64,000 bases of DNA from Halichondria panicea (taxonomy: Eukaryota > Porifera > Demospongiae > Suberitida > Halichondriidae): positions 6,626,084 to 6,690,083 of the forward strand of contig NC_087387.1 in the NCBI RefSeq assembly GCF_963675165.1, written 5' to 3'. Under the pieces are notes generated by a model that did not search any database, was not told the origin of the DNA, and saw nothing but the letters and a program-made list of their open reading frames with translations. Positions within the stretch are counted from its first letter, which is position 1. Each line of letters starts with the position of its first letter. Shown in pieces: positions 3,761-63,967 of this stretch. The position numbers and the translations under genes were made by a program.

Positions 3761-4014
3761 TCACGGAACAATGGAGCCAGTATAGAAGAAGTCAAGGAAC
3801 ACACACACAGCATGCAAGTGATAAACAAATACAGTAGTATTAAAGCCAGATAGACAACTTAAAATAGCAGTGCTATATACTTCAGCTCTAAACATACAAT
3901 GAAGTGCAATATACTGTACGTAGTTGAAGTACTGAATGGCATGCAGGAAGTATCACACCCACACCATGCATGTAGTGAGGCTAAGCTACAACATGCAGGG
4001 AGTTGACATGACTG

Positions 4015-5033: not shown

Positions 5034-5069
<36 letters not shown>

Positions 5070-7578: not shown

Positions 7579-7584
7579 TTACCT

Positions 7585-7594
7585 GTGTGCGTGT

Positions 7595-7632
<38 letters not shown>

Positions 7633-7663
7633 CGTGCGTGCGTGTGTGTGTGTGTGTGTGTGT
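7585..7663. repeat. (GT)n-rich microsatellite at the E2F 5' end
   Basis: Interrupted GT/GC dinucleotide tract just upstream (on the minus strand) of the proposed E2F start codon at 7578, so the 5' UTR or a first non-coding exon contains it. Confidence 0.8.
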
Positions 7664-7907
7664 AAGACAATATTCAAGCTCTAGTAAGAAAGTGAACTTG
7701 ACATTGTACATGTTGTAGTACAGTATTTATATAGAGTCTAGTAAAGCAGGAAGTAAAACTAGTTGGCAAGGAACAAGTGAACAAACTCAAGTTTCTAGTT
7801 CAAAACTAGACAGAACAAAACCTACTTCTTTCTTTTCTCAGTTTTCCTCTTTCTCTCTTTTTCTCAGTGCCTGTATTAGCATTCAATAGCTTCTTTAAAG
7901 TCTACAA

Positions 7908-8070
7908 GAAATTCCCGCTATATGTTGGAACCCGCCAGCACCAGAATCATGAGTTGACCAATCAAACGATGATGGGGGCGTGGCACTCGGCCACATGGCA
8001 GATGACCAGCCCCTCCCCGTACAGTATCCCTGGAGCGATTGCACGTGCGCAGAATGCAGCCCGATGGGGA
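7908..8070 (-). promoter_or_regulatory. Probable promoter of the E2F7/8-like gene
   Basis: Upstream of the E2F start codon there is an E2F-like site TTCCCGC (7912-7918), a CCAAT box in the NF-Y context GACCAATCA (7956-7964), and an NRF1-like GTGCGCAG near 8046, in sequence that is more GC-rich than its surroundings. E2F plus CCAAT sites are typical of cell-cycle genes that E2Fs autoregulate. The call rests on motif content only; no transcription start can be read from the sequence. Confidence 0.35.
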
Positions 8071-8460
8071 CACAAGTACAGCTCAAGTCATGTTTACAGC
8101 CAGAATTATTTTCCTGAGCTTTTATTCTGTCTTCAGTCATAGTGAGTGTTTTGTGTGCAGTAGATTCCCCATGTAGAGCTTACAATAATTATTGCTGTAT
8201 TTAATACTGTAATTATATGTAAATGACAATCACTTGTAATGCCAATAAAACAATCTCTGTTAACAGTACCTACATAATTATAGCTAATGACAGTAATCAG
8301 TATCTCTGTGCTAACAATAGCCACTATTTTTCATTTTAGCAGTTTTTAGTTGGTAAATAAACAATGTGTAATGTGTGCCGCAGATACATATGGATGCTGT
8401 TATTGTTCAAACCATATAGTTTGTGTCTAATTTTGTAAATAGCTAGAACACAAATGAAAC

Positions 8461-8535
8461 TTCCTGTCATCAGGTTTCAGGTTTCACTGTTCGTCACTGT
8501 TTGCATAAGTAGCTATTGTAAACGATATAAGTTGC
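8461..8535 (+). promoter_or_regulatory. Shared upstream block of 3-SRCR receptor genes
   Basis: The string CAGGTTTCAC followed by GTCACTGTTTGCATAAGTAG and ATATAAGTTGCT lies about 30-100 bp before the ATG of the receptor at 8566. The same block precedes the broken paralog at 22546 (about 22375-22435), and a third copy is at 26812-26875. Conservation between old, otherwise diverged copies suggests a core promoter, with ATATAA as a possible TATA-like element. Confidence 0.45.
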
Positions 8536-8565
8536 TACACAAAATTAGTCAGTCTGAAATTTACA

Positions 8566-10848: not shown

Positions 10849-12850
10849 GAGAACTGAACATTTGTGTATAAAATCATACACTTGCTTTTGATCAAAACTT
10901 AGAAATTTCAAGTACATATAATCTGAGTCACTATAATAATTATTATATCATACTATTTTGAATACTTTATCACATGTTTTAATGATGTGAGTTGTGGTTG
11001 GAGTGATGTAGTTTTGTCTAATTGGTTCTGATTCTCTTAACTGTCTATAAATGGGTTTGGAATTCAGTTCCTCAGAGGTAATGTGCATAACAGACATGCA
11101 TAATTATATACTATGATATTATCCTATGGATACTGAAGATTATCACGAGTCTGTGCCAGTAACTGCACGAGTGCCTGCAAGGCACGAGTGACAGTTACTA
11201 GGCACATTGGACGAGTGAATTATTATATGGTGGTGCAGTACACTTCTACATGTGCAATACTCCGCTCAAAGCACCCACTTCCAACACTGATGCCTGTTTG
11301 ATGCGTTAAATATGAACACTGACAACCTCCTGACCCTCAGCTTCACTGCAAAAAGAGCACAGAAGTGATACAGAGCATCAGAAAACGAGAAAAGAGACTG
11401 ATAAACATTGCAGTTGAAGACGAGTTTAAGAGAAAGAAAACAGCTAGAAAGACAAAGAAATAAGACTCTAGAACACCAAGAGAGCTTACAGAAGGCTACT
11501 TAAAGATTTTGTAGAGAACAGACAAGAAAAAAGACAAGAAAAACGTTGACAACCAGCAACCCGTTTTGAAAATGGATAGTAGGATAAACAGCATGTGCTT
11601 GCTTTCTATCATGCTCCAGTGTATCAGAAGAGGAAACATGCACCGCTATAACTGAAGAAAAGTGTGACAACCGTTTTTGAAGCCAAAACGACTTTATACA
11701 AGCCTGAACAGGCTTATATGGTGGTGCAGTACACTTCTACATGTGCAATACTCCGCTCAAAGCACCCACTTCCAACACTGATGCCTGTTTGATGCCTTAA
11801 ATATGAACACTGACAACCTCCTGACCCTCAGCTTCACTGCAAAAAGAGCACAGAAGTGATACAGAGCATCAGAAAACAAGAAAAGAGACTGATAAACATT
11901 GCAATGCATAATTATAAGTGTGTAAACTATGTTTTTCTGTTCTCTCACTGCTGAAAACGTTTTATTCCAAATAAGAATCACTTCCTAGTGTGCAATTGCA
12001 ATAATACTTCCGGGTGTGCAATATGGAAAAATATCTGCACAGTCGGTGATGAGTCGCTTCCTGTGCAATTTGAATGTAAAACGCTGATGTCAGCACTTAT
12101 TAAAAAGCAATAAAGAGTCATACTCCACTATAGAGGTAAAACTATAATAATTTTTTTCTTTTCTATTTCTTGTCACTAATTAATTTTGTGTGGCGATGTA
12201 ATTAGAAGAAAGACGGTAAATTCGTTACCTTCAAATACCCATGCATGAATAAAGTATAAGTTTATAGTAGATTGTTGACGGTGTTATTTCGAAAAAAAAT
12301 CTCTAATTAAGCCCATATTAAACTATTACTAACGGTTGATGTACGTCACTCAAGAGCTGTACTGAAAACCAATTTTAGGGATACAAAGTTAGTCTGTAAT
12401 TAAAGCAGACCACTGTACATACAGATGCATATACAGCTGTAGCCAGTTCTCACATGTTCTCTCTGAATTTAGATCATAACCATGGTGACAAGATGACGAG
12501 AGTGAACTCTGCATGACCTTGTTCCGGTGTCCATGCAAGGTTTGTAAACTAAGAGATAATCAAACTGGTGAGTTGGAGCAACATAACACGTTAGGGCCGG
12601 GACATTCTCTATTGTCATAGGTGGCCTGCCATTCTTCATCCTATAATATTGTAGTGATTCCTTTCACCTGGTTCAACTGTTCTGTTATGCATGTAATTGT
12701 GGTGCCAAACACTATGATTGCATGCTTGTGGTTGAGTAAACTAATAAATGAATGTGTTGTATACGTACGCTTGGCTCACCATTAATTATGAAAGATACTG
12801 AAACTACGAAGTTATTTAGGAGTTACCATGGTTAACTTATTCCAGTGTTG
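10849..12850. other. Intergenic stretch with repeats, no gene seen
   Basis: No receptor exon was found. It contains a hairpin-forming segment (about 11136-11215, CACGAGTGCC opposite GGCACGAGTG) and a 190-bp direct repeat listed separately. The remainder is AT-rich. Confidence 0.55.
11223..11903. repeat. 190-bp direct repeat pair flanking 301 bp
   Basis: 11223-11412 and 11714-11903 both begin TTATATGGTGGTGCAGTACA and end GATAAACATTGCA and differ at about two positions. The spacer (11413-11713) is unrelated, purine-rich sequence. It may be a solo duplication or a remnant of an element with direct terminal repeats. No ORF of note lies between. Confidence 0.75.
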
Positions 12851-17375: not shown

Positions 17376-19074
17376 ATGAACACTCTGATATTGATTGCAA
17401 TCCTCTTTGTTGCTTCTAAAGCTGTTCAAGGTAAAGTTCTTGTATACTTCTATGATTAGATTGCAAGTTTACTCCCTCAGGCTGCATCAATGGAAAGGTA
17501 CAGATACGAGATGATGGTAGAGTCAATGTTTGCTCTGATCAAGAATGGAAAACTGTGTGTGAGAAAGGCTACCAATGGCGTGCTTATCAAGCTAACATTG
17601 CTTGCAGACTGCTGGGCTACAATAATAATGGTACATTTGTCAGTACAATGTATGCTTTGCTAGTTCTTTGGGTCCCACAGGGGCAAGTGTGGAACGATCA
17701 TGCTTTGTCTCAACCGGTCTGAATTACATTGATGTTAGTAAGTGTAGTGGAACAGAGAATACGTTTGAAGAATGTGGAATCAACCAAAGAGATTTTGATA
17801 CTTGCAGAGGTGGCTGCAGTGGTACCGAGAAAAGTCATCCTGAAATAATGTGTCTATTAGGTAAATATTTTGTTAAAAACAGCTGAGTATAATAATGTTT
17901 ATGAGTTGTAGCCGACTGCACTAACGGGACCATAAGACTGGTGGATGGGTCCAGCGTGAGAGAGGGACGAGTGGAGGTGTGTGTGGGCGGTCGCTGGGGA
18001 GCTGTTCAAACAAACAATTCCCAACTGGTTGAATTTGTTTGCTCTACACTGGGTTTCCCAACTGAAGGTAGGGACAGTGATGGTTGCCATGTGCATCTAA
18101 TAATTATGTTATAGGTTCAGAAGCAGTCACTACTTTTGGCAATGGAACAGCTCCAACAAGAAGCTGTGTAATAATGAATAGTGTCCTCCACTGTGTGGAT
18201 ATTGCAGACCAGTCTGTTGATGATTCCATGGATCTTGGTGTTGTGTGCAAGACATACCAAGATGTTATCAGCTCAGTTATTAAAATAACAATAGAACAAG
18301 CCCTTCAGACGTGTCCTGAACCAACCACAATCACACTAGCTGATGAAGTACAAAGCTGTGACAATGCTGGTAGCCCTATTGCAGCCTTGGGAGGAGTGAT
18401 TGGTCTTCTGGTGGTTGCACTCCTGGGACTTGCTATTGGATTGACTGTAACTTGCTGTGTATTGGAGAAACGCAGGTCACAGAAACAGCAAGCTGAGTGA
18501 GTAGTTCATTGAGCATATGTATTCCATTGAGTGTGTTGTTGTTTCATGAATAATTATTTGTTGACAAGAGAACCAGCTGAATAATTTTATTTGAAAGCAC
18601 TATATACATGTAGCATGTTTTTATTCAGGTGTATTGTATACATTGTCCACGTTCAGTTCCAATAATAAGTGAACACCTCTGTATCGATGCAGGTACAATA
18701 CTTCTCAAGTGCAAGAGCTCTCAACAATTCAACGACAACTGAACAACCCAGTATACAATACAAGCATGGAAGTACACAGTGCATACAGCTCCAGTGGACC
18801 CACCTACGAACAAGTTGCCAATGGCAATGAACAAGACCACACCTACTCAATACTTGAGCGCGATAAGAACACGAATCGTCGCTCAAATCAGCTCAATCCT
18901 ATAGACGAGGAGCAGAACTACCATGTGGTGGAGAGTGGAAGGTGTGAGGGTGTGGAGGGAGCGGGCTGTGACGGTGTGTACAGTGAGGCTAGTAACTACG
19001 AAGTGCCAATGTCAAGCAAAACGGACAGCAAGGTGTGGCTGTGTGAAGAGGATTACTCCACACTCAAGCATTGA
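17376..19074 (+). CDS. Two-SRCR receptor, long ITAM-like tail (intact)
   Basis: Six exons: 17376-17430, 17481-17630, 17681-17860, 17912-18067, 18115-18496, 18693-19074; 434 residues, no breaks. Signal peptide MNTLILIAILFVASKAVQG. SRCR 1 about 19-128 (WKTVCEKGYQWRAYQANIAC; NTFEECGINQRDF). SRCR 2 about 129-226 (GRVEVCVGGRWGAVQTNN; MDLGVVCKTYQ). The membrane helix is GVIGLLVVALLGLAIGLTV. The tail starts EYNTSQVQELSTIQRQLNN and has NPVYNTS, TYEQVANGNEQDHTYSIL (YxxV-x9-YxxL), NYHVV, NYEVP and C-terminal EDYSTLKH. SRCR 2 lacks the cysteine usually found after GRWG (AVQ instead of TVC), a trait shared with the other MNTL-type copies at 40048 and 43268. Confidence 0.87.
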
Positions 19075-22545: not shown

Positions 22546-23668
22546 ATGGCTAGTATGCTAATCTTTGTGTTAGTGGCTGCATTCATAACACAAGGGACTG
22601 GACAAGGTGAATGGAATTTGTTTGTATTTCACGTGTATCTTAATAATTATAGATACTTGCACTGTCGCTGGTGAGCTCGAGTTGAATCCTGATAGCTCAG
22701 TCAGTATTTGTCAGTCTTCATCATCGGGGTTCAAATGGACCAGCGTATGTTATTCTGGCTGGACTATCACTCATGCAAAACTGGCTTGTAAGCAGAATGG
22801 TATGGATTTTCAAGGTATACGTATACAATAATTGTTCTAGACAGGTATAGTTGAAACTGTGAATACAGGAGCTCAAGTCATGGAGGTATCAGTAAACTCT
22901 ACAAGTTGTGTAACGTTGCCAGCCTGCAATGCGAATGAGCAGAACCTAACTGAGTGCTTTTAATGGAGGTCCTGTCACTTCATCATCATCTACCAACCAC
23001 ATAGCTGGATTTACATGTGGTAATAACATTACATATAATTATACTATCACATGCATCGCTCTATAATGTATGAGGAAAGCTGTATTTTTATACAGGTTGT
23101 TTCGATGGTGATGTTCGATTCAGAGACCAACCACTTGAAATGGATGACTCAGTAAAAGGGGTAGTGCAGTTTTGTGACAATGGAGAGTGGAAAACATTGT
23201 GTGCCGTTAATTGGTTAACAGCAAAATCATCCATTGCTGTCCCGCACGTAATTTGTCGACAACTATAGGTTATTCTGAAAGAGGTATAAGCTATTTACTA
23301 AGCATGTCGCATACATTTTGATGTGATGTATACAGGAGCTACAAGAGGTGCAGTCTGTTCATCTCCACCAACATCACCTCATTTCAGTCATCCTGTATGT
23401 AATGGAGTTGAAAGAAGCCTGTTAGAATGTAGCAGAACCAGTCGAGACTCCTGCCCCAGATTGTCCTGTACAGGAGACGATAAAACATATGGTGCAGTGA
23501 CTTGTATTAAAGGTGAATTTATTACCAAACTGCTTGTATGTAATTCATTCATGCACTGACAAGATTGCACTAACGGAACCACAAGACTGGTGGGTGGATC
23601 CACGACTAGAGAGGGACGAGTGGAGGTGTGTGTGGGTGGTCGCTGGGGTACAGTGTGTAGTATCAATC
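22546..23668 (+). pseudogene. Broken copy of the three-SRCR receptor
   Basis: Colinear with exons 1-6 of the gene at 8566: exon 1 22546-22606 (MASMLIFVLVAAFITQGTGQ), exon 2 from 22653, exon 3 from 22870, exon 4 from 23097, exon 5 from 23337 and part of exon 6. Exon 3 contains a frameshift with stop (GAGTGCTTTTAATGG). Exon 4 has a 2-nt insertion creating CAACTATAG. Exon 6 breaks off after CAGTGTGTAGTATCAATC (23668), where sequence of an oppositely oriented family M gene begins. Stalk, membrane helix and tail are missing. Confidence 0.88.
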
Positions 23669-24025
23669 CCTTTATTGGCTCCTGATATAAGATTGTGATA
23701 GCTAATTCATTAACGAGCAAAATTGTAACGTACCTTGGCCGCTGAGTCCCAGTTGTCTGCACACAACATTGGCCTCCACTCTTGTCCAGCTTCCACCACC
23801 AGCACACAGCCAATGCCATTCTCCATTGTGGCAGTACTGGACATACTTTTCATTCAGAAGTAAAGCTCCTGCCACAAATAGCTTTACAGTTCCATTATTA
23901 CACACTGCAAAATCATATTATTATAATAAATAATTATTACTGAAGCACTTACTTTTCTCGTCGGCGAGTATTTGTCTAACTAGGACAATAGTGAGTAATA
24001 CCAAGCAGATACTAGATCTAGCCAT
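23669..24025 (-). pseudogene. Family M 5' fragment (signal exon and first SRCR half)
   Basis: Exon 1 begins ATG 24025 (MARSSICLVLLTIVLVRQIL). The next exon, about 23906-23737, encodes an SRCR half (WHWLCAGGGSWTRVEANVVC RQLGLSGQG). The start of the following exon (GAGCCAATAAAGG) ends at 23668, fused to the plus-strand pseudogene. No SRCR end, membrane helix or tail remains. Confidence 0.82.
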
Positions 24026-29311: not shown

Positions 29312-29914
29312 GACTATTCGCAATGCAAATCTATTAGCTGGTTATTTGTTATACGTACTCTGGCTATGATTCAATACATTTGCTTTCATGTGTTGCATTT
29401 GTCTGTCTTTTGCCGTATCAAGCATAACAGTTCTCTAAACTGAGTAGGCGTTGAATGAAAGTGAATGCCTTGTAGACACAAGAGTGTTTTGACAATAATA
29501 ATTATGTCGATTCTATCAAACACGATATAGCCATTATAGAGCGATGAACAACTGCAGCCAGAACTGTTTGCTTCGTTTTCGTGGACAGTTTTAGTTGGAT
29601 AAATCTGTGAATACAGTGACTGTAGAGCCAATTCAATGGTACAAGACGAATATACGCTGTCTGATAGTTAACTGTCAATAACATGATAATTATGGTTATA
29701 GATCCTTGAGGGAATATGTTTTAATTCATTTTTTACTTCATTGGTACCACAAGTAATTATAGTTTAAACAGCATAATCATCGTGAACAAATCATATTGTG
29801 TACAATCAGTGTTATAAAATAATTGATGTATAGTAATAATCTCGTATTAATTTAAGGTACGTGTTTGTATGATACACCACTAGCTACGCCTGTTAGTATT
29901 GTATAGAGAAGTCC

Positions 29915-31346
29915 TCTCATTCCTGGATTCCATCGTCACTGGTGGTGGGTTGGATATCTGGAGTGCTCTCCGCTTGGGCTTGAAATTATCAATGACATTA
30001 TAGTCACCAACGGCTTCATTGCTTGTGATCAGTATCGTAGTTAGGATCTTGTGAGCTAACGTTCGGTTGTTTTAGGAATGTCCCATTGTAACTCTCATTC
30101 ACTTTTATTAGAATTCTGTTACTGAGGAAAAAAATTATAGCACCTCCAATGTTTGAATTACCTTTGTTTTGGTGAACTTGAGTTCCTTTTCCTTGTGACA
30201 GTACAAGCCACCCACGCAATAACTGTCCCTACTTCTAGTAATACAAGAAGTCCAATCACTGCTCCTAGTGGATTACTGTGAGTGTCAGTGCACGCTGGTG
30301 TTGTGGTACTGGGTGGGCTACTGCTAGGGATAGCTGGATTGCAGTTGCAGTCTGGTGTATTGTCAGGTGGACTAGGGCATGTTCCGTTGATTGCTAGAGT
30401 ATGTACAGCAGAGTTGAAAGTTTGACATGTGATGACTAAGCTTGCCATATCACATATGTGTGACTGTATAGTGTCTACACAGTTCAGGGTGGTGCCATCA
30501 TCTGTCACTATACAGTTGACTTTTGGGTCAATAGAGGAGGTAGTACTATTCGCCATTGCCCCTGTATAAACATTCGTAGATTTCTTAAATAATCTTGTGC
30601 ATCATTACCCTGCATTGGAAGTCCTAACATTTTGCAAACAGTGCCTGCCAGCTCTAGGTCTTCATTGTAACAGACGGTTGCCCAATGTCCCTGTGCACAG
30701 AAGTTGACTCGTCCCTCTCTGATAGTGGAACCACCCACCAGTCTCACTGTTCCATCAGTGCAACTAGCTGTATAGTATTATGCCATGCCATAATAGTATC
30801 AAAATGATTGCCAGTCGCCCTTACCTGATTGACATACAACCCATCCTATCTTATCATTTGCACATGTAGTAGGTGAATATATACTCTCCCTGCATTCCCG
30901 TATGTTACTTTCTCCTCCATCACAAGATGACTCAGCAAACATAAAATATGGTCCATTTACTGTGAGTGTACTACTATTCTTAATTGCTCCTAATCATGAT
31001 GAAATCATATAATTAACGGCATGAGTATAGGAACTATAACATACCTTGGCCGCTGAGTCCCAGTTGTCTACACACAACATATTGGCCTCCATGCACTCTT
31101 GTCCAGCTTCTACCACCAGCACACAGCCAATGCCACTCTCCATCATGGCAGTACTGGACATATCTTTTAGCCAAATTATCATTACGTTCAAATAGCTTTA
31201 CAGTTCCATTATTACACACTGCAATCATATCATATAGTCATAATGATGAATGATTTATTGCACTGAAAAACTTACCTTAATTGCCCATCCACGAGTATAT
31301 GTCCAACTAAGACAATAGTGAGTAATACCAAGCAGATACTAGCCAT
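29915..31346 (-). pseudogene. Family M receptor with signal-exon and tail frameshifts
   Basis: Exons 31346-31276, 31218-31045, 30989-30825, 30767-30609, 30561-30162, 30115 onward. Exon 1 is 71 nt against 67 in paralogs; GGGCAATTAAGGTAAG carries 4 extra nt before the donor and shifts the phase. Exon 2 has a CATG insertion (31090-31093) plus two further bases, together in frame. The stalk is long and Ser/Pro/Thr-rich (PSSSPPSTTTP, CNCNPAIP), like that of the chimera at 48.1 kb. The tail loses two bases at NYDT and ends NYDTDHKQ, removing the second tyrosine motif. Confidence 0.8.
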
Positions 31347-38220: not shown

Positions 38221-39349
38221 TCACTGGTGTGGGTTGGATATCTGGAGTGTTCTCGGCTTGGGCTTGAAATTATCAATGACAGCATAATCACCAACGGCTT
38301 CATCTCCTGTGGTCACAGTATCGTAGTTAGGATCTTGTGAGCTTACGTTTGGTTGTTTTAGGAATGTCCCATTGTAACTCTCATTCACTTTCGTTAGAAT
38401 TCTGTTACTGAGGAAAAAATTATAGCACTTCCAGCTTGTTGGAATATCACATATGTGCGACTGTATAGTGTCTACACAGTTCAGGGTGGTGCCATCATCT
38501 GTCACTGTACAGTTAACTTTTGGATCAATAGAAGTAGTACTTTTCGCCATTGCTCCTGTATAAACATTCGTACATTTAAACTTCATTTTAAATATGGTGT
38601 TGTACATTTTATTACCCTGCATTGGAAATCCTAACATTTTGCAAATGATGCCTGCCAGTTCTAGATCTTCATTGTAACAGATGGATGCCCAATGTCCCTG
38701 TGTACAGACGTCCACTCGTCCCTCTCTGTTAGTGGAACCACCCACCAACCTCACTGTTCCATTAGTGCAATTAGCTGTATAATTATCTCATACATGCAGT
38801 AATCAACTTTAACAAACTCTTACCTGGTTGGCAGTCTACCCATCCTTTTCTACTATTATCATCACATGTACTGGGATAACTAATGCCCTTACACTCTCCT
38901 ATATCATATTCCCTTCCAGTACATGTGCCACCAATTATGAAGTAGGCAAAGGGGTGTTGATCAGCTGGTACTGTTGTACTTCCTCCTTTATTGGCTCCTG
39001 ATATAGGATTGTGAACAAGGACATGTATAACAAGCAAAACTAGCATATACCATGGCCGCTGAGTCCCAGTTGTCTGCACACAACATTGGCCTCCACTCTC
39101 GCCCAGCTTCCACCACCAGCACACAGCCAATGCCATTCTCCATCATGGCAGTACTGGACATACTCTTTCATAAGGAAACCATACTCACCTTCTACTAGCA
39201 TTACAGTTCCAGTATTACACACTGCACAATCACATGCAGAGCATTAAATTACTTTATCTATGATTATTACTGAAAAACTTACCTTGCCCGTCCGCGAGTA
39301 TATGTCCAACTAAGACAATAGTGAGTAATACCAAGCAGATACTAGCCAT
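38221..39349 (-). CDS. Family M receptor lacking its membrane helix (possible secreted form)
   Basis: Exons 39349-39283, 39221-39051, 38997-38824, 38774-38616, 38555-38221; 301 residues. Signal peptide and SRCR exons are open (YVQYCHDGEWHWLC, GWVDCQPG, GRVDVCTQGHWASIC). In the last exon the sequence passes from CVDTIQSHICD directly through former intron (IPTSWKCYNFFLSN) into the tail RILTKVNESYNGT without a frameshift. The stretch encoding the end of the SRCR, the stalk and the membrane helix is deleted. The tail keeps YDTVTTGDEAVGDYAVI but ends early (ISNPHQ) by a 1-nt loss. With a signal peptide and no helix, the product would be secreted if expressed; it could equally be a decaying copy. 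Confidence 0.72.
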
Positions 39350-43267: not shown

Positions 43268-44691
43268 ATGAACACTCTGCTATTGATTGCAATCCTCCTT
43301 GTTGCTTTTAAAGCTGTTCAAGGTAAATTTATTGTATTACTTCTGTTAGACTAGGATACAAGTTAACTCCCTCACAGGCTGCATTGATGGAAAGGTACAG
43401 AGACGAGATGATGGTAGAGTCAATGTTTGCTCTGATCAAGAATGGAAAACTGTATGTGAGAAAAACTACCAATGGAGTGTTTATCAAGCTAATATTGCTT
43501 GCAGACTCCTGGGCTACAATAATAATGGTACATTCTTCAGTATAATGACTGTATGCTTTGCTAGTCTTTGGGTCCCACAGGGGCAAGTGTGAGACGATCA
43601 TGCTTTCCCTCAACCAGTCTGATGTACATTGATGTTAGTGAGTGTAGTGGAACAGAGAATACTTTTGAAGAATGTGGAATCAACCAAAGAGATGTTGGTG
43701 ATTGTTTAGATTGCAGTGGTGGCAAAAGACATCCTGGAGTAGTGTGTCTACGAGGTAAACATTTTGCTCACAAGAGTTTGAGTATAATAATTTATGTATT
43801 ACAGCCGACTGTGCTGATGGAGAGATAAGACTGGTGGGTGGGTCCAGCACAAGAGAGGGACGTGTGGAGGTGTGTGTGGGCGGTCGCTGGGGAACTGTTC
43901 AAAACAATAATTCCCAAATGGTTGAATTTGTTTGCTCTACACTGGATTTCCCAACTGAAGGTAGGAACAGTGAACATTTAAATAATAGTTGCCGTGAGTG
44001 CATACTATTTTGTAGGTTCAAAAGCAGTCACTACTTTTGGCCATGGAACAGCTCCAATAAGAAGCTGTGTAATAATAAACAGCATCATTCACTGCGTAGA
44101 CATTACAGATGACGATTCCATGGATCTTGGTGTTGTGTGTAAGACACACCAAGATGTTATCAGTTCAGTTATTAATAGGACAATCAATCAAACCCTTCAG
44201 ACATGTCCTGAACAAACCACGACCAGCGGAACAAATCAGCCAGCCACCACCAGCAGTGAAGTAGACCATTTCATTACATTAGCTAATAATGAAATGGTCG
44301 GTAGCTGTCCTACTGTCGTCTTGGGAGGAGTGATTGGACTTCTGGTGGTTGCACTCCTAGGACTTGCTATTGGATTGACTATAACTTGCTGTGTGTTGTG
44401 GAAACTCAGGTCACAGAAACAGCAAGCTGAGTGAGTTCATTGAGCATACGTTTTCATTGAGTGTGTTGCAGTTTCATATGCTTTTGGCAAAACAGCCAGT
44501 TGATTTTTGGCTTTTGTCCAATGTACAAATGCAGGTATTCTCAAGTGCAAGAACTCTCAACAATTCAACCACAACTGAACAACCCAGTGGACAATGTGAG
44601 CATGGAACCAAATAATGCCTACAGCTCCAGTGAACCCATTTACGAACAAGTTGCCAATGGCAATGAGCAAGATCACACTGTGGTATCCTGA
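43268..44691 (+). CDS. Two-SRCR receptor with short single-YxxV tail (intact)
   Basis: Exons 43268-43322, 43378-43527, 43581-43754, 43805-43960, 44016-44430, 44535-44691; 368 residues without breaks. Signal peptide MNTLLLIAILLVAFKAVQG. SRCR 1 about 19-126 (WKTVCEKNYQWSVYQANIAC; NTFEECGINQRDV). SRCR 2 (GRVEVCVGGRWGTVQNNN; DSMDLGVVCKTHQ). A Thr-rich stalk (TTTSGTNQPATTSSEV) and helix (GVIGLLVVALLGLAIGLTIT) follow. The tail of about 52 residues reads NPVDNVS where long tails have NPVY, keeps PIYEQVANGNEQDHT, and stops at VVS exactly where long tails continue with YSIL. So it keeps only one half of the tandem tyrosine motif. Confidence 0.87.
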
Positions 44692-45039: not shown

Positions 45040-46497
45040 GTTAGCTGAGTGGCTGTCCAATAGAAAACTGTATGCTAAAAAAACTACAGACTGAGATGGA
45101 GTATCCATGAGGCTAATGTCACATGCAGACTGCTCGCCCACGAAGATAATGATATTATATCATGAGTAATAACTTCTATATGCTCTGCTAGATACATACT
45201 TCACAGGGGCAACTACGGTGGCCCTGAGCGTTACTATTAGTTCACCTTAGCTACTTGATACTTCGCCTACCTTAGCTACTGGGTAGTTCGCCTACCTTAG
45301 CTACTGGGTAGTTCGCCAACCTTAGCTACTGGGTAGTTCGCCAACCTTAGCTACTGGGTAGTTCGCCAACCTTAGCTACTGGGTAGTTCGCCAACCTTAG
45401 CTACTTCGAAGTTGACCTTTGAACGGTATGTTAATGCTGCTGCTGGAGCCATGCAACTCAATATAAATGAGAGCTCCATGTATATATACAGGTACTGAGG
45501 ATTATCTGCAGCCGGTTAGTGCTACCCTATGGGTAACAGCAATGCAAGATGAGAGTACCACACTTGATTCATTTGGAAGTTACATGTTATTCACAATACT
45601 AGCTAGTCTAATAGCTTGGGGCAATAGAGCTAGGATTAAGAGACCTTTTTCTTCTCTTCCCCCTCCCCTCTGAGAAAAGGTCTGGCCCTAGACTAATACA
45701 ACACATGCAGTTCAAGTTGTTCACGTTTATATCTCCTAATCCCATTGCAGCACAAGAATTCTGTACTATACAATGGTTCTGGTGTGGTACTCTAGTCTTG
45801 CATTGCTGTTAGATAATCCTCAGTACCTGTATACGTGCTATGTAGCTCTCATTATTGATCTCTAGTCGCTATGTACAGTACGGCTACAGCAGCATTAAAC
45901 AGAATTAACATGCAGTTCAAAGGTCAATTGCGAAGTAGCTAAGGTAGGTGAACTATCAAGCAGCGAAGGTAGGTGAACTATCAAGTAGCTAAGGTAGGCG
46001 AACTATCAAGTAGAACTACCCAGTAGCTAAGGTAGGTGAACTACCCAGTAGCTAAGGTAGGCGAACTATCAAGTAGAACTACCCAGTAGCTAAGGTAGGT
46101 GAACTACCCAGTAGCTAAGGTAGGCGAACTATCAAGTAGAACTACCCAGTAGCTAAGGTAGGTGAACTACCCAGTAGCTAAGGTAGGCGAACTATCAAGT
46201 AGAACTACCCAGTAGCTAAGGTAGGTGAACTACCCAGTAGCTAAGGTAGGCGAACTATCAAGTAGAACTACCCAGTAGCTAAGGTAGGCGAACTACCCAG
46301 TAGCTAAGGTAGGCGAAGTATCAAGTAGCTAAGGTGAACTAATAGTAACGCTCAGGGCCACCGTAGGCAACAGTAAGATGCGGCCATGCTTGGACTCAAC
46401 CACTGAGAATTACATTGCAGTTCTGAGTTCAACGAAAAATTTGAACAATTTGGATTTGAACAATGTGGAATAACTTCAACAACTTTTGTGGATTGTG
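45040..46497 (+). pseudogene. Degraded family P gene split by a foldback element
   Basis: 45040-45207 resembles the first SRCR exon (AGAAAACTGTATGCTAAAAA, ACATGCAGACTGCTCG). 46372-46497 resembles the next exon (ATGCTTGGACTCAACCACTG, GAACAATGTGGAATAACTTC). The 1.15-kb foldback element sits at the intron/exon border. After 46497 the sequence switches to the inverted tail exon of a family M gene, so the rest of this copy is gone. Confidence 0.72.
45214..46365. mobile_element. Foldback transposon with subterminal tandem repeats
   Basis: The ends TACGGTGGCCCTGAGCGTTA and TAACGCTCAGGGCCACCGTA are perfect inverted repeats, flanked by GGCAAC at 45208-45213 and 46366-46371. Inside each end are tandem units of about 25 bp (CCTTAGCTACTGGGTAGTTCG), about six on the left and more on the right, where a compound unit with ACTATCAAGTAGA recurs. 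The arms remain complementary far inward (GGTACTGAGGATTATCTGCA against its inverse near 45.82 kb). No transposase is encoded. The related empty site CACAGGGTCAACCGTAAGAC at about 51560 confirms the insertion. Confidence 0.88.
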
Positions 46498-47824
46498 GTT
46501 TATTCTCCTTCAGCATTAGTCTTTTTCTCCTTATTGACAGCTGCGTACATATGCTCCTCTGTATTGTAGAACTCATCCTCACTTTTACTGGCCTCAACCT
46601 TCACTGGTGGTGGGTTGGATGGTTTCGGTTTCTGTTTGTTCTGATCAATGACATCATAGTCACCAATTCGTTCATCGCTTGTGGTCACAGTATTGTAGTT
46701 AGGACCTAGTGAACTGTAGCTTGGTTCTATTAGAGCTGTGTCAGTGTAGCTCTCATTTACTTTTAATAGAGCTGTACATGTTATGGCATAATTATTAATT
46801 ATAGAACAAAGTTAGCAAATTATACCTTTGTTTTGGTGGACTTGAGTGCCTTTTCCTTGTGACAGTACAAGCCACCCACACAATAACTGTCCCTATTTCC
46901 AGTAATACAAGAGTCCCAATCACTGCTCCTAGTGCACTGGTTGAATTACTTCCAGTGGTTTTATTCCGTAAAGCATAGTTGTGAGTTTGGCATGTGATGA
47001 CTAAGCTTGCCATATCACATATGTGCGGCTGTATAGTGTCTCCACAGTTCAGGGTGGTGCCATCATCTGTCACTGTACAGTCGACTTTTGGATCAATAGA
47101 AGAGTTAGTACTATTTGCCATTGCTCCTGTAACATACATAGATTTAACGTAAATAATCTTGTGCATTATTAACCTTCGATTGGAAATCCTAACATTTTGC
47201 ATACAGTGCCTGTCAGCACTTCATTGTAACAGATGGATGCCCAATATCCCTGCATACAGACGTCCACTCGTCCCTCTCTATTAGTGATACCACCCACCAG
47301 TCTTATGTCTCCACCGTTACAGTTGGCTGTATAATTATCTCATGCAGTATTAACTTTGATTTGCAAAAGTTAATGCTCTTACCTGGTTGACATCTTACCC
47401 ATCCTGCACTCTTACTACATGTACTGGTATGAATTATTGCACTCTCCTATGTTACTTTCCTCTCCAGTACATCTGCCACCAAACATAAAGTAGGCTAGTG
47501 ATTGATCAGCTGCTGTTAGCGTTATACCATGGCACCTCCTATGTTAGCTCCTGAAGATGGTGATGGACTAATTCAAGGACATGTACAACAAACAGAACAA
47601 ACGTACCTTGGTCGCTGAGTCCCAGTTGTCTACACACAACATTGGCCTCCACTCTCGTCCAGCTTTCACCACCAGTACACAGCCAATGCCATTCTCCATC
47701 ATGGCAGTACTGGACATACTTTTCATTCGAAAGGAAATTTCCTTCAGATAGCTTTACAGCTCCATTATTACACACTGCACAATAGAGCATAAAATACTTT
47801 ATTACTGAAGCACTTACTTTTCCT
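46498..47824 (-). pseudogene. Family M receptor without start, with frameshift and tail splice defect
   Basis: Exons recognised: first SRCR half about 47778-47607 (VEANVVCRQLGLSDQG), second half from about 47550, second SRCR about 47333-47177, membrane exon about 47125-46826 (LGAVIGTLVLLEIGTVIVWV), tail to 46500. Exon 1 is reduced to its last few bases, because the locus is joined head-to-head to an inverted copy at about 47820. The third exon reads GGTGCCATGGTATAACG and stops. At the tail acceptor the usual AACAG|AGCTCT is TGTACAGCTCT, so a normal AG in phase is missing. The tail frame itself is open (SYTDTALIEPSYSSL, NYNTVTTSDERIGDYDVI). Confidence 0.78.
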
Positions 47825-48653
47825 ATTTGGACAAATATTCGCGGACGGGCAAGGTAAGTTTTTCTGTGCAATAAATCATTTAATTTAATGATATGATTGC
47901 AGTGTGTAATAATGGAACTGTAAAGCTATCTGAACGTAAGTATAATTGGGCATCCATCTGTTACAATAAAGTGCTGGCAGACACCGTTTGCAATATGTTA
48001 GGATTTCCAATGCAGGGTAATAATGCACAAGATTATTTAAGAAATCTACGAATGTTTATACAGGGGCAATGGCAAATAGTACTACCTCCTCTATTGACCC
48101 AAAAGTCAACTGTACAGTGACAGATAATGGCACCACCCTGAACTGTGTAGACACTATACAGTCGCACATATGTGATATGGCAAGCTTAGTCATCAAATGC
48201 CAAACTCACAACTCTGCTGTACCTACTCTAGCAATCAACGGAACATGCCCTAGTCCACCTAACAATACACTAGACTGCCCTAGTCCACCTAACAATACAC
48301 TAGACTGCAACTGCAATCCAGCTATCCCTAGCAGTAGCCCACCCAGTATCACAACACCAGCGTGCACTGACACTCAAAGTAATCCACTAGGAGCAGTGAT
48401 TGGACTTCTTGTACTACTAGAAGTAGGGACAGTTATTGTGTGGGTGGCTTGTACTGTCACAAGGAAAAGGAACTCAAGTTACATGTACAGGTACAATACT
48501 TCTCAAGTGCAAGAGCTCTCAACAATTCAACAACAACTGAACAACCCAGTGGACAATGTAAGCATGGAACCAAATAATGCCTACAGCTCCAGTGGACCCT
48601 TATACGAACAAATTGTCAATGGCAATGAGCAAGACCACACTGCGGTATCCTGA
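47825..48653 (+). CDS. Chimeric receptor: family M SRCR and helix fused in frame to a family P tail
   Basis: The plus strand carries a 5'-truncated signal exon (TTTGGACAAATATTCGCGGA, donor about 47852/47853). An exon 47903-48016 begins as the first SRCR half (VCNNGTVKLSERKYN) and continues as the second SRCR (WASICYNKVLADTV), in frame. The membrane exon 48064-48653 has stalk repeats (CPSPPNNTLD twice; PSSSPPSITTP), helix (LGAVIGLLVLLEVGTVIVWV) and RKRNSS. It then passes without a break through former intron (YMY) into the family P tail RYNTSQVQELSTIQQQLNNP and ends GPLYEQIVNGNEQDHTAVS. No ATG or promoter of its own is visible, so expression is uncertain, but the fusion is open throughout. Confidence 0.72.
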
Positions 48654-49787: not shown

Positions 49788-51336
49788 ATGAAGCTGCAAA
49801 AAGACATGGAATTCATCAAACAGGCCTTCATTCTGCTGGTAGTGCTAACAGTATTTCCAAGAACTCACACAAAGTAAGTAACATAATTATACCCGATGAG
49901 TCAAGTCAGTGTCAATTGTGCATGCACTCACAATGGATCTATAGGCTGTTCTCATGGAGATATTCAACTGGAGAACAGTGGTGCTATACAAGTTTGCTAT
50001 AGCAACGTGTGGAAAAGTATCTGTAGAAATGGTGCATGGTCAAGTGAAGAGGTAAATGTAGTCTGTAGCCAGCTTGGATACAGCAACCAAGGTACGTGCT
50101 TTATAGAGTTATAACTTTGAGTGAAACTCTGCAAATTGTATATAGGTGCTAGTGCTTCGCATGAGTGCCGCTTGGCTGATACCAATGGATACCTCAGAAA
50201 TATTAATTGTCGTGGTAGCGAAAACAAATTATTCGAGTGTGGCTTCACACTTAATTCTGAATGTAATCAAGATGACAATTGCAAAAACGAAGATAAGAGG
50301 TCTGCCACTGTAATATGCTCACCAGGTACAATGCTAATTATACACTATATATAACTCTCATGTAAGTTTTCACTTCATGTAGCAAACTGCAGTAATGGTG
50401 AAGTGCGTCTGGTGAATTCAAGAGTGCATGGAGTGTTGTCTCAATAGTCGGTGGGGAGGAGTATGCAGTGTAGGGTGGTCAGAAGCAATGGCGGGTCTCC
50501 TTTGCTACAAACTAGGATTCTCTAATGGTAAGAATAGTTTGAGATCATACCTGATTTGTGTTGAACTTAATGTAACTTTACAGTGGCTGTGATGACAATC
50601 CTTAACCCATAACCCACAAACTTCTTCACAACTCGAGTGCACAATATCCGACAACGGGAATGTCAGCCGTACTGCTACCAGTGATTGTGACATGGAATTG
50701 AGAGTGATGTGTCTAGAGCAAGATTTTGTTACCCGACTAGTGAACCAGGAATGTACTACGAACTGTGAAACAATGTCAACTAGCACGGAAGTTAGTGATG
50801 ATCAGTCAACAGTGCCAACAACTGAGAACGTTTCTCAGGGAAATAATCAAAACTGTTCCATTGCATCTAGTGCCACAAGCAAAGTAGAACAACCCTCTAG
50901 CAAAATGGTGGAAAACAATAACTGTACATGTCCTATTGCTGCCTTGGGAGGAGTGATTGGTCTTCTGGTGGTTGTACTCGTGGGACTTGCTATTGGATTG
51001 ACTGTAACTTGCTGTGTGTTGGGGAAACGCAGGTCACAGAAACAGCAAGCTGAGTGAGTTCATTGAGCATATATTTTCATTGAGTGTGTTGTTGTTTCAC
51101 AATTGCTTGTTGATTGTTGATAATAATTATTATTAAAGGCACTATTAATTTGGCTTTCTGGCTTTTGTCCATGCATGCAATGCAGCAACAGTTCTCAAGT
51201 GCAAGAGCTCTCGACAATTCTAAACAACCCAGTGGACAATGTGAAAATGGAATCAAACAATGCCTACAGCTCCAGTGGACCCATTTACGAACAAGTTGCC
51301 AATGGCAATGAGCAAGATCATACTGTGGTATCCTGA
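49788..51336 (+). pseudogene. Two-SRCR receptor (short tail) with frameshifts
   Basis: Recognisable exons: signal exon from ATG 49788 (FIKQAFILLVVLTVFPRT), SRCR exons 49945-50091 (VWKSICRNGAWSSEEVNVVC) and 50146-50325, second SRCR 50383-50527, membrane exon from about 50583 to 51054 (GVIGLLVVVLVGLAIGLTVT), tail from about 51190 to TGA 51336 (GPIYEQVANGNEQDHTVVS). The signal exon ends in a different phase from its paralog at 62753. The second SRCR has a CATG insertion (50427-50430) leading to a stop (CTCAATAG). The membrane exon begins with stops. The helix and tail are intact. Confidence 0.78.
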
Positions 51337-56385: not shown

Positions 56386-57298
56386 TCAGGATACCGCAGT
56401 GTGGTCTTGTTCATTGCCATTGACAACTTGTTCGTAAATGGGTCCACTGCAGCTGTATGCATTATTTGGTTCCATGGTCACATTGCACACTGTATTGTTC
56501 AGTTGTGGTTGAATAGCTGAGAGCTCTTGTCTTTGAGAACTGCTGCTGCATTTGCAGTATGGCAAAAGCCGGAAAGCCAAATTAATAGTGCCTTTAAATA
56601 AACTTATTCAGCTGGCGGTTTTGTCAACAAGCATGAAACAACAAACACTCAATGGAACACATATATGCTCACAGACTCACTCAGCTTGCTGTTTCTGTGA
56701 CCTGCATTTCCCCAACACACAACAAGTTACAGTCAATCCAATAGCAAGTCCCACGAGTGCAACCACCAGAAGACCAATCACTCCTCCCAAGGAGGCAATA
56801 GGACAGCTTCCCAACATTTCATTAGCTGATATGGATTGGTCTACTTCACTGGTGGTGGTTGGCTGATTTGTTTCACTGGTGGTGGTTGGTTCAGCACACG
56901 TCTGAAGGGTTTGATCGATTGTCCTATTAATAACTGAGCCAATAACATCTTGGTATGTCTTGCACACAACACCAAGCTGAAAGGAATCATCAACAGACTG
57001 GTCTGCACTGTCCACACAGTGTAGGGAACTATTCATTATTACACAGCTTCTTGTCGGAGCTGTTCCATGGCCAAAAGTAGTGACTGCTTTTGAACCTATA
57101 ACACAATTATTAGACGCACATGGCAACCATCATTTTCCCTACCTTCAGTTGGGAAACCCAGTGTAGAGCAAACAAATTCAACCATTTGGGAATTGTTTGT
57201 TTGAACAGTTCCCCAGCGACCGCCCACACACACCTCCACTCGTCCCTCTCTTATGCTGGACCCACCCACCAGTCTTATCTCTCCATCAGCACAGTCAG
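56386..57298 (-). pseudogene. 5'-truncated family P receptor (SRCR, helix, short tail open)
   Basis: Exons 57298-57143 (ADCADGEIRLVGGSSIREGR, GGRWGTVQTNNSQM), 57095-56681 (LGVVCKTYQ, Thr-rich stalk, GVIGLLVVALVGLAIGLTVT) and 56539-56386 (tail, PIYEQVVNGNEQDHTAVS). All three are open and in phase, and the lengths 156 and 415 nt equal those in the intact gene at 43268. Signal peptide and first SRCR are absent: right after the acceptor side of the first exon, an inverted-repeat element begins (about 57306). Downstream flank matches 48.66-48.9 kb inverted. Confidence 0.8.
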
Positions 57299-59089: not shown

Positions 59090-59810
59090 CACTCTGAGGG
59101 TCAAATTATGCTAATTTAGTGCTCTATTATTCTCAATTATGCTAGTTGCTAGAAGTCTACCTATATAGCCCTAGAAGGGACACCACACCCTTCATAAGAT
59201 TAGTATGAAAAAGCATTCTCACAGGAAAACCATTGGGTGTATTGGTGTGTGTCTTTTATCTTGTACCTTATCAGTTTAGTCATGTGTTGTGCATCAACAT
59301 TATGAAATTCACAGTTTATAGCTTCCATCTGGAGTAGTCCCCATGGGACCTGAATTATACCCTATATGAAGTTGTAGTATCCCACAGACACTTGATTCTG
59401 ACAATATCAACAGTCTATACACAAATGCTCTGCATGGTTGCAACAAAGTGCTTTTAAACTTGACATCCCACTAAAATAATCTGGGATTCTCTGGGGAAAC
59501 GGTGATCGAGAGCATAACTACAATCTGTTACAAATGTTAGCAATTCCATGTGATGCCCAGCCAATACTTCATCAAGTCGAATTCCCTCTTTTTAATGTAA
59601 TACTGAGGTAAGTGGAATAGAAGTTAATTGCTAATTTTTCGTGAATGCGTGTATATATACATGCAAAGTATTACACACTCAGTACATATACTGGTGATGG
59701 AATGTGTTTAGAACACTCCATGGCATCACTGTGAACAGTGAACTGCATACATGTAAATACTAAAACACTGGCAATACCCCTGGATATGTTTTGAGCTACA
59801 ACACTGTAAT
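59090..59810. other. Intergenic stretch, nothing recognised
   Basis: AT-rich sequence without receptor exons, long open frames or clear repeats. Confidence 0.5.
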
Positions 59811-62322
59811 CCACTGGCATCACTGGTATCACTATATGAACACTGGCTTCACTGTAAACACTGTATCACTGGCATTACTGGCATCTCTGGAAACACTGGC
59901 ATCACTGTGAACACTGGCATCACTGGAAACACTGGCATCATTGGTATCACTGGTGAATACTGGCATCACTGGTATCACTGTGAACACTGTGAACACTGGC
60001 ATCATTGGTATCACTGTGAACACTATGAACACTGGCATCACTGCAAACACTGGCATCACTGGCATCACTGTGAACACTGGTATCACTGTGAACACTGTGA
60101 ACACTGGCATCACTGGAAACACTGGTATCACTGCGAACACTGGCATCACTGTGAACACTGGCATCACTGTAAACACTAGTATCACTGTGAACACTGGTAT
60201 CACTGGTATCACTGGCATCACTGGGATCACTGCAAATACTGGAATCACTGTAAACACTGGTATCACTGGCATCACTGGGATCACTGCAAACACTGGCATC
60301 ACTGTGAACACTGGAAACACTGGAAACACTGGCATCACTGTGAACACTGGAAACACTGGTATCACTGCAAACACTGGCATCACTGGAAACACTGGTATCA
60401 CTGGTATCACTGGGATCACTGTGAACACTGGCGTCACTGTGAACACTGGCAACACTGTAAACACTGGTATAACTGTGAACACTGGCATCACTGCAAACAC
60501 TGGCATAACTGCAAACACTGGCATCACTGGGATCACTGGGATCACTGTGAACACTGGCGTCACTGTGAACACTGGCATCACTGTGAACACTGGCAACACT
60601 GTAAACACTGGTATCACTGTGAACACTGGCATCACTGCAAACACTGGCATCACTGTGAATACTGGCATCACTGTAAACACTGGTATCACTGGCATCACTG
60701 GGATCACTGCGAACACTGGCATCACTGTGAACACTGGAAACACTGGAAACACTGGCATCACTGTGAACACTGGAAACACTGGTATCACTGCAAACACTGG
60801 CATCACTGGAAACACTGGTATCACTGGCATCACTGGGATCACTGTGAACACTGGCGTCACTGTGAACACTGGCAACACTGTAAACACTGGTATCACTGTG
60901 AACACTGGCATCACTGCAAACACTGGCATCACTGCAAACACTGGTATCACTGGCATCACTGGGATCACTGTGAACACTGGCGTCACTGTGAACACTGGCA
61001 ACACTGTAAACACTGGTATCACTGTGAACACTGGCAACACTGTAAACACTGGTATCACTGTGGACACTGGAACACTGGCATCACTGGAAACACTGTAATC
61101 ACTGGCATCACTGGCATCACTGCAAACACTGGCATCACTGTGAACACTGGCATCACTGCAAACACTGGCATCACTGTGAACACTGGCAACACTGTAAACA
61201 CTGTGAACACTGGCATCACTGCGAACACTGGCATCACTGCGAACACTGGCATCACTGGAAACACTGTAATCACTGTAATCACTGGCATCACTGTAATCAC
61301 TGGCATCACTGCAAACACTGGCAAACACTGCGAACACTGGCATCACTGCAAACACTGGCATCACTGCGAACACTGGCATCACTGCAAACACTGGCATCAC
61401 TGCGAACACTGGCATCACTGCGAACACTGGTATCACTGGGAACACTGGCATCACTGTGAACACTGGCAACACTGTAAACACTGCATGTGAACACTGCCAT
61501 CACTGCGAACACTGGCATCACTGCGAACACTGGCATCACTGCGAACACTGGCATCACTGGAAACACTGTAATCACTGGCATCACTGTAATCACTGGCATC
61601 ACTGCAAACACTGGCAAACACTGCGAACACTGGCATCACTACGAACACTGGCATCACTACGAACACTGGCAACACTGTAAACACTGGCAACACTGTAAAC
61701 ACTGGTATCACTGGGAACACTGGGATCACTGCGAACACTGGCGTCACTGTGAACACTGGGATCACTGTGAACACTGGCATCACTGCGAACACTGGCAGCA
61801 CTGCAAACACTGGCATCACTGCGAACACTGGCATCACTGCAAACACTGGCATCACTGCGAACACTGGCATCACTGCGAACACTGGTATCACTGGGAACAC
61901 TGGCATCACTGTGAACACTGGCAACACTGTAAACACTGCATGTGAACACTGCCATCACTGCGAACACTGGCATCACTGCGAACACTGGCATCACTGCGAA
62001 CACTGGCATCACTGGAAACACTGTAATCACTGGCATCACTGTAATCACTGGCATCACTGCAAACACTGGCAAACACTGCGAACACTGGCATCACTACGAA
62101 CACTGGCATCACTACGAACACTGGCAACACTGTAAACACTGGCAACACTGTAAACACTGGTATCACTGGGAACACTGGGATCACTGCGAACACTGGCGTC
62201 ACTGTGAACACTGGGATCACTGTGAACACTGGCATCACTGCGAACACTGGCAGCACTGCGAACACTGGCATCACTGCGAACACTGGCATCACTGCGAACA
62301 CTGGCATCACTGTAAACACTGT
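59811..62322. repeat. 2.5-kb minisatellite (9/18-bp unit, higher-order repeats)
   Basis: The array is built from 9-bp modules of type NNCACTGNN. The commonest 18-bp unit is AACACTGGCATCACTGTG, varying as TGCAAACACTGG, GGGATCACTG and so on. Larger repeats are visible: a block near 60266 recurs about 426 bp later, and 61477-61927 recurs from 61928. Because 9 is a multiple of 3, open frames run through it on both strands (Asn-Thr-Gly-Ile on plus; Pro-Val-Phe-Ala/Thr-Val on minus, up to 549 codons), which are products of the repeat. Confidence 0.93.
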
Positions 62323-62329
62323 ATGTAAT

Positions 62330-62740
62330 TATTGCGTAGGTGGGACTCTGTAATTATTCACTCTTTATGGATCCATCTTACATGAGACATCAACCAAATT
62401 TTGGGAGATTCCACATAATACACATTATCAAGAAGCATGGAAATGAAGTTTGGGGGGGTCTTAGAAAGCTCTGTGTAAGGCCACAAACATAAAAAAGTGT
62501 TTCGCGGCGTTACGGTGGGGGACAACACACGTACACATCGTTTCAGGATTAAGCCACACCCCCTGCACAAAAGTCTACGTTTTAACTTCCGTTGCCAATC
62601 CCTCTCTTCTTTATCTATGTTTCAAGGCACTGTTAGTCTTATTTTCTCTCTGGCTTTTATCCACTTTCAGTTCTAATTATGAGCACTTATATACAAATGC
62701 AGGTATAATAATCCATGTCTAGTTGCTGTTGTTAGAAGCT
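62330..62740. other. Flank between minisatellite and receptor
   Basis: No exon. The last 100 bp (TCTGGCTTTTATCCACTTTC, ATCCATGTCTAGTTGCTG) match the upstream region of the fragment at 52.4 kb. Confidence 0.5.
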
Positions 62741-62752
62741 GCAAAGAGAGAC

Positions 62753-63967
62753 ATGCAGATCGGCAAACTGTCGTTTATTGTACTGGTAACACTCAACATT
62801 TGTTTAGGGGCTCAAGGTAAGTAATTTACCTACAATGCTTGTTGAACAATAATGTATATAGGCTGTTCTCATCATGGAGATATTCGACTGGAAAGTGGTG
62901 ATGCTCTACTGAATAGTAGTGGTGCTGTACAAGTTTGCTATGGCAACGTGTGGAAAAGTATGTGTAGTGCAGAAATAATAGATGGTCAAACGAAGAGGCG
63001 AATGTAGTCTGTGCTCAGCTTGGATACAGCAACCATAGTATGTGTTTAAAGTTATTATTTATTAGTTTCATGTAACCTTGAATGAAAACTGTATGTATAG
63101 GTACTAATCATTCGTATAAATGCCGCTCAAATAATACAAATGGATACTTCAGAAATGTGAACAGTCATGGCACCGAACACAAACTTCTTGAATGTGGCTA
63201 CGCGAATAACCCTAGTACATGTAACCAAGGTGGAGGTTGCAATGGTTTGAGGAGAGATGCCACTGTGAGCTGCTTACTAGGTAATTTCATAAAAAATAGG
63301 TTCCAATTGTCAATTTACACCGTGTAGCAAACTGCAGTAATGGTGAAGTGCGTCTGGTGAACTCGAGAGTGGAGTCTTGCCTCAATGGTCGGTGGGGAGG
63401 AGTATGCAGTGTAGGGTGGACAGAAGCAATGGCAGGTCTCCTTTGCTCTGAACTAGGATTCTTTAATGGTAAGAGTGGTTTGAGATTGTTATTCAGTCAA
63501 CAGTGACAAGAACTGAGAATGTTTCTCAAAGTGTCACAAGTGAAGTAGAACAACCCTCTAGCGAAATGATGGGAAGCTGTCCTATTGCCTTTTTGGGAGG
63601 AGTGATTGGTCTTCTGGTGGTTGCACTCCTAGGACTTGCTATTGGATTGACTGCATGTAACTTGCTGTGTGTTGGGGAAATGCAGGTCACAGAAACAGCA
63701 AGCTGAGTGAGTTCATTGAGTTTGTTGTAAATGTTTATAAAAAACAGCTGAATAAGTTTATTTTAAAGGTATTAATTTGGCTTTCTGGCTTTTGTCCACA
63801 AATGCTACAACAGTTCTCAAGTGCAAGAACTCTCAACAATTCAACCACAACTGAACAACCCAGTACACAATGTGAGCATGGAACCTAACAATGCATACAG
63901 CTGCAGTGGACCCATTTACGAACAAGTTGCCAATGGCAATGAGCAAGACCACACTGTGGTATCCTGA
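62753..63967 (+). pseudogene. Two-SRCR receptor (short tail) with several frameshifts
   Basis: Signal exon 62753-62816 (MQIGKLSFIVLVTLNICLGA). The first SRCR exon has about five extra bases (TGTAGTGCAGAAATAAT), causing a stop at GCGAATGTAG. Next are SRCR exon from about 63102 (YANNPSTCNQGGGCNGLRRD) and second SRCR about 63328-63468 (WGGVCSVGWTEAMAGLLC). The membrane exon has lost its first part and carries a CATG insertion inside the helix (63654-63657, GLAIGLTACNLL). The tail is open and complete (CSGPIYEQVANGNEQDHTVV), ending TGA 63967. A sister of the copy at 49788. Confidence 0.78.

Follow-up and report, generated by a model that had tools for sequence, protein, structure and literature searches.

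A fusion gene between two SRCR receptor families in a tandem cluster of Halichondria panicea, with a complete-looking copy and a truncated one

Comparable receptor clusters and the present locus

Receptors of the SRCR superfamily are described as expanded in Amphimedon queenslandica and as lying in tandem clusters: most members combine a signal peptide and SRCR domains with a membrane helix and a tail, two SRCR domains each occur in four genes belonging to one cluster, and the cysteines per domain number six in group A, eight in group B and seven in the sponge group C (PMC10855680, in part). The locus investigated here resembles this arrangement in its tandem SRCR cluster and two-SRCR genes; unlike Amphimedon, where three exons encode an SRCR domain (PMC10855680, in part), two exons per domain are present, and a word search of the main text of that study for "fusion", "chimer-" and "unequal" returned no occurrence. 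In the KIR cluster, recombination within the genes of a tandem array gave rise to fusion genes, which is ascribed to unequal crossing over; signalling is decided by the tail and the charge of the helix, and a charged residue in the helix can indicate that the receptor pairs with a partner chain (PMC5290243, in part). The present locus shares with KIR the tandem receptor cluster containing fusion genes, but it encodes SRCR instead of Ig domains, and its join runs from exon to intron with a one-base overlap, unlike unequal crossing over as given for KIR (PMC5290243, in part). The Sp185/333 genes of the sea urchin are clustered immune genes in repeat-rich DNA that has been called unstable; the likeness consists in clustered invertebrate immune genes within repeat-rich DNA, the difference in the gene family and in the opening of the abstract, which makes no mention of a tail swap (PMC5103432, in part). 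Among the titles and abstract openings of the open-access literature searched, no tail-swapped SRCR gene was found. The hybrid reported below is a genuine gene fusion; clusters of this kind are known, and fusions of this sort have been described from the KIR cluster. It provides a base-resolution view of how a tandem SRCR cluster can swap signalling tails between two families with common exon phases, and both the complete product and a decaying copy are left for comparison.

The window, i.e. the whole stretch of 64,000 nucleotides analysed (C11:6626084-6690083; whole-genome searches covered 131.5 Mb in 39 contigs), contains a tandem array made up of two families of SRCR receptor genes, M and P, the former mostly on the minus and the latter mostly on the plus strand. 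Judged by their sequences, M and P are sister families of predicted type-I membrane receptors with two SRCR domains, six exons and intron phases 1-1-1-1-2. The exon order of family M is signal; SRCR1 (two exons); first half of SRCR2; second half of SRCR2 together with stalk and membrane helix; tail. The P gene at 17376-19074, read by eye, follows an M-like plan of six exons with intron phases 1, 1, 1, 1, 2. Outside the right arm of the inverted repeat described below, 18 M signal exons were found and 13 M-type genes possess all six parts (M8 being included despite its deleted helix); three of these, copy B (see below) among them, pass the strict frame-and-splice rule, which is a lower bound since a looser rule gives a few more full-length M genes (e.g. 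37470, C11:6724030). Outside the same arm, 16/18 membrane-exon matches of family M are combined with an M tail and 2/18, the hybrid copies A and B, with a P tail; for the P membrane-exon matches (n = 24, some genes giving two) a P tail was found in 16 cases, no tail in eight and an M tail in none. Beyond A and B, this pairing of membrane exons and tails revealed no other case of an M helix combined with a P tail.

Other rearranged genes occur in the array. In M8 (38221-38787, minus strand), the membrane-helix part is deleted and the second-half exon of SRCR2 lies in one frame with the M tail exon; the in-frame fusion would yield a protein without helix, and an inverted copy of M8 is built alike. 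Another broken rearrangement occupies 23563-23905, where a piece of P SRCR2 on the plus strand and an M head on the minus strand, the latter reduced to signal and SRCR1a, are turned towards each other by their 3' sides, 73 bp apart.

The tail junction and the complete copy B

In the hybrid gene of the window (copy A; see Table 1), an open reading frame at 48024-48653 (+, 209 codons) leads from VGTVIVWVACTVTRKRNSS via YMYR into YNTSQVQELSTIQ and ends on HTAVS and the stop codon; the terminal exon spans 48064-48653 (+). Homology to family M extends up to 48480, the very base with which similarity to the P gene at C11:6727978 begins, so that the two partners have one base in common. At the junction, the M exon end S-P-K-Q-R (as in M4) is replaced by Y-M-Y-R, and the intron is gone. 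The bases 48480-48490 are regarded as former intron, since TACATGTACAG constitutes the last 11 intron bases directly before the tail exon of this P gene. The first-pass annotation had postulated a single frame running from an M helix across three former intron codons into a P tail: the frame and the homology break bear this out, and the intronic origin of the codons was correctly recognised. A 35-base pattern across the tail junction, searched in the 131-Mb genome with up to three mismatches, gave two matches, both exact, and its reversed control gave 0, so that the match is not due to chance; whole-genome searches at the DNA and protein level revealed one other junction site, at C11:6738271-6739056. 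The tail swap is a true gene fusion.

Table 1. Features of the hybrid gene in the window (copy A) and of the family M genes compared with it.
Feature	Window position	Strand	Remarks
M4	29886..31346	-	closest M relative found for the outer part of the hybrid; fails the frame-and-splice rule
M9, family M gene adjoining the hybrid	46503..47775	-	head gone through the same deletion 1
Deletion 1 scar	47820..47821	.	M9 signal-exon region (-) joined to hybrid signal exon (+); from comparison with copy B
Truncated signal-peptide exon (...FGQIFADGQ)	47821..47853	+	no in-frame ATG; donor GTAAGT kept
Fused exon, first 12-15 codons of SRCR1a and second half of SRCR2a	47903..48016	+	deletion 2 scar at 47940-47947
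Terminal exon, family M part (second half of SRCR2, stalk, membrane helix)	48064..48479	+	88.9% to 30686-30175 (-) over 47945-48480
Former P intron end TACATGTACAG, now coding YMY and AG	48480..48490	+	identical to intron end of P gene C11:6727978
Family P short-type cytoplasmic tail and stop codon	48491..48653	+	93.5% to 44538-44691, 88.9% to 18690-18842, 88.3% to 56539-56386 (-)

Nearest in length to the hybrid tail are the short-type P tails, in which HTAVS or HTVVS is followed by the stop codon. The hybrid tail itself is a mosaic: over 48488-48530, which comprises three bases of former intron plus the first 40 of the exon, the sequence equals that of the P gene at 18690; taken in full, the tail has its closest counterpart in the short-tailed gene at 44538, and its 3' flank is nearest to the gene at 56398 (-). 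Four further places with a junction-crossing protein match or a matching tail (C11:6755319-6755615 (-), 6727975-6728139, 6714456-6714680 and 6710718-6711161 (-)) were read and discarded as M-P hybrids, all of them reading as ordinary M or P genes, beside an intron or across it; the 266-codon frame of the first exists only because its short intron is open.

Copy B (C11:6737624-6739009) is located about 64,000 bases from the window copy and consists of five exons (6737624-6737690, 6737748-6737915, 6737971-6738132, 6738190-6738342 and 6738390-6739009); all introns are bordered by GT-AG, the exon lengths place the four of them in phase 1, and the 1,170 coding bases form 389 codons in one frame with the sole stop at the end. 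Its predicted layout is signal peptide, two SRCR domains, M helix and P tail: the Pfam SRCR profile PF00530 is matched in two stretches (54.8 bits versus a cut-off of 26.1, E = 1.3e-14), the cysteines number 8 + 8, i.e. 16 over the two SRCR domains, and the putative signal peptide MASICLVLLTIVLVGQIFADGQ and membrane helix LGAVIGLLVLLEVGTVIVWVACTV were assigned by visual inspection and from their resemblance to other M exons. Over 0.3 kb, the DNA preceding B matches (77-79%) the spacers that precede two other M genes. Copy B is, as far as its sequence allows to judge, a complete, intact-looking gene; the copy in the window is most likely a relic, and the object of interest is the complete sister gene beyond the window. 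The stalk repeat CPSPPNNTLD (30 bp; 48246-48305, +) is present in two copies in A, three in B and one in M4.

Most simply, the fusion event would have been a deletion between adjacent M and P genes. In the ancestor, an M gene would have been followed by a P gene of like orientation; the loss would have extended from the end of the M membrane exon to the last 11 intron bases before the P tail exon, with a one-base overlap, and M exon 5 and P exon 6 would have become one terminal exon without intron. The product, a full receptor with M outer part, M helix including the conserved Glu, and short P tail, would survive as copy B, whereas duplication would have created a second locus at which two deletions led to copy A. 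This history as a whole (M-P fusion, B as survivor, A derived by duplication and two deletions) appears quite likely to us.

The hybrid product would be a type-I receptor combining M recognition with a P tail. LLE is present in 18/18 M helix matches, and a charged residue in 0/14 P helix cores listed (15 matches examined, one without core); only by analogy with KIR might the helix Glu be taken for a pairing site of a partner chain. The YxxPhi motifs number one in the hybrid tail (YEQI), three and four in two M tails, two in a short and four in a long P tail; the long P tail contains NPVY, where the hybrid tail has NPVD instead. The ITIM pattern, [SIVLT]xYxx[ILV], is absent from the five tails tested (the hybrid tail, two M and two P tails), a further point of difference from KIR. 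In the short-tail P subfamily (44538-44691, 51186-51334, 56386-56539 and 63806-63967), the protein ends soon after HT(A/V)VS, without NPVY. Counting A and B, 24 P tails were listed outside the right arm: 10 are short, with NPVY in 0/10, and 14 are long, with NPVY in 11/14.

Selection on the hybrid and reliability of the assembly

That copy B is an expressed receptor, in which a single deletion re-wired an M-type recognition module to P-type signalling, is a possible but rather unlikely reading. Such a receptor would reach the cell surface and signal differently: the three to four YxxPhi motifs of the two M tails would be reduced to one, and the M helix Glu would be kept. It would represent a natural tail swap within an invertebrate receptor cluster; if expressed, B would permit a direct test of whether an invertebrate receptor changes its signal yet keeps its recognition part, as in KIR fusions.

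Between B and M4, 29 non-synonymous and six synonymous changes were counted over 307 codons, after exclusion of codons affected by gaps or insertions. The dN/dS ratio, which had been proposed as a check of the hybrid, amounted to 1.45, and no constraint is detectable: given its 95% bootstrap interval of 0.64-4.96 (Fisher p 0.54), purifying selection on the hybrid is not demonstrated. The failure of M4 itself to pass the frame-and-splice rule may inflate this ratio, and the M family is fast-evolving anyway, as deduced from the values of 0.62-1.03 obtained for B versus six other M genes (partner stop codons also dropped). The introns of B and M4 differ at 2/144 bases, fewer than the exons; those of the six other M genes are too diverged from B for use as a yardstick. 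Between A and B, 3/590 bases of the hybrid exon differ (3/416 in the M part, 0/174 in the P part) plus one 30-bp repeat unit, versus 0/500 of the bases just outside (with a 10-bp insertion in B), beyond which the difference is 0.6-5.25% per bin. No extra conservation of the hybrid exon is seen in this comparison; since the exon is no more alike than the adjoining DNA, the likeness of A and B may result from youth or gene conversion.

Both hybrids might instead be chance by-products of a fast-rearranging cluster, with a frame open by luck, a copy B that is young and as yet undecayed, and neither of them ever a working receptor. This explanation comprises the same fusion history as the one preferred here and disputes function only, and the probabilities given to the two overlap; we regard it as a serious possibility, somewhat short of probable. 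It agrees with a dN/dS of B versus M4 that is not below 1, with the small difference between A and B that is equally small in the next 500 bases, with the 10/13 all-part M-type genes broken according to the strict rule (fewer by the looser one), and with the existence of another in-frame fusion in M8, but it does not lead one to expect that B retains the signal exon, all splice sites, the 16 SRCR cysteines, the stop codon and the M-type upstream region.

The assembly looks unreliable in this region. An inverted repeat of 43 kb relates window 1-43476 to C11:6762569-6807591 at 99.95-99.99%, almost at the contig end (6808682): window 1-12443 corresponds to C11:6807591-6795149 inverted (1 mismatch), and window 12436-43476 to C11:6793609-6762569 inverted (12 mismatches and 3 gaps). 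An E2F-family exon (PF02319) within the arm occurs at three genome places at 100%; the third of these, C11:6018058-6025000, is identical to the arms over at least 6,943 bp and starts directly after a 200-N run, and the window start directly follows an N run as well. A contig piece may have been folded or falsely duplicated. These peculiarities would suit an artefact of assembly, with misjoined repeats or two haplotypes in one contig having produced the M-P junction or the A/B pair; however, this is improbable, as the two contexts of the junction differ in the presence of the two deletions and in the number of stalk repeats (two or three), as the flanks of A and B differ by up to about 5%, and as both copies lie outside the inverted arms. 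The tail junction of the preferred fusion history is independent of the arms being real, since A and B are both situated between them and differ from each other.

Decay of the window copy

Relative to B, copy A has suffered two losses. Deletion 1 comprises about 1,579 bp of B (6736079-6737657) that are missing from A, both start codons included; in B, this stretch holds two signal exons, a truncated M gene end and spacer. As deletion 1 joins two facing signal exons, M9 and the hybrid are both headless. The frame before the first donor of A reaches a TAA upstream without an ATG, and the first intron is 8 bases shorter than that of B. The SRCR1b exon of M9 shows a frame change at 47434/47436; the copy of M9 beside B is also frame-changed there and fails the frame-and-splice rule at SRCR1b. 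Deletion 2, whose ends overlap by 3 bp (ATT), removed about 481 bp without closing the frame; the missing sequence is a normal M stretch from SRCR1a to SRCR2. The fused SRCR domain contains seven cysteines versus eight in each domain of B, and A spliced from the second exon (234 aa) gave no Pfam SRCR match above cut-off, the best one being SRCR_2 (E = 0.48, 11.5 bits versus a cut-off of 27). Copy A has most likely decayed from a B-like gene, since the reverse direction would require the gain of normal M sequence in exactly the right places, and it is probably a headless, silent gene.

The first-pass annotation had considered the hybrid functional for a time on account of two independent junctions that keep the frame. 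The in-frame fusion of the first and second SRCR exons it described is indeed present (47903-48016, join within 47940-47947), but the argument built on both junctions fails: the SRCR1/SRCR2 join occurs in A only, a probably dead copy, and says nothing on function because it sits in a headless gene. Frame conservation at two joins would by itself be weak evidence, with an estimated chance of about 1/3 each. What stands is the in-frame tail swap, carried by the complete, intact-looking gene B; this gives the idea of a working hybrid more support than can be drawn from the window alone. Copy A by itself is rejected as a once-functional hybrid: it has no start codon, its upstream region is gone, its cysteine count is odd and no SRCR match exceeds the cut-off. 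Continued expression of A as a decoy or regulator, a short protein started at the next ATG in frame (47893), would profit from the open downstream frames and splice sites, but is highly improbable, as this start needs retention of intron 1 and provides no signal peptide, the upstream region kept by B is lacking and the SRCR domain has seven cysteines.

Just downstream of M9, a tandem repeat of the GTAGCTAAGGTAGG type is located at 46000-46330, and a long tandem repeat tract at 59757-62353 is open in several frames.
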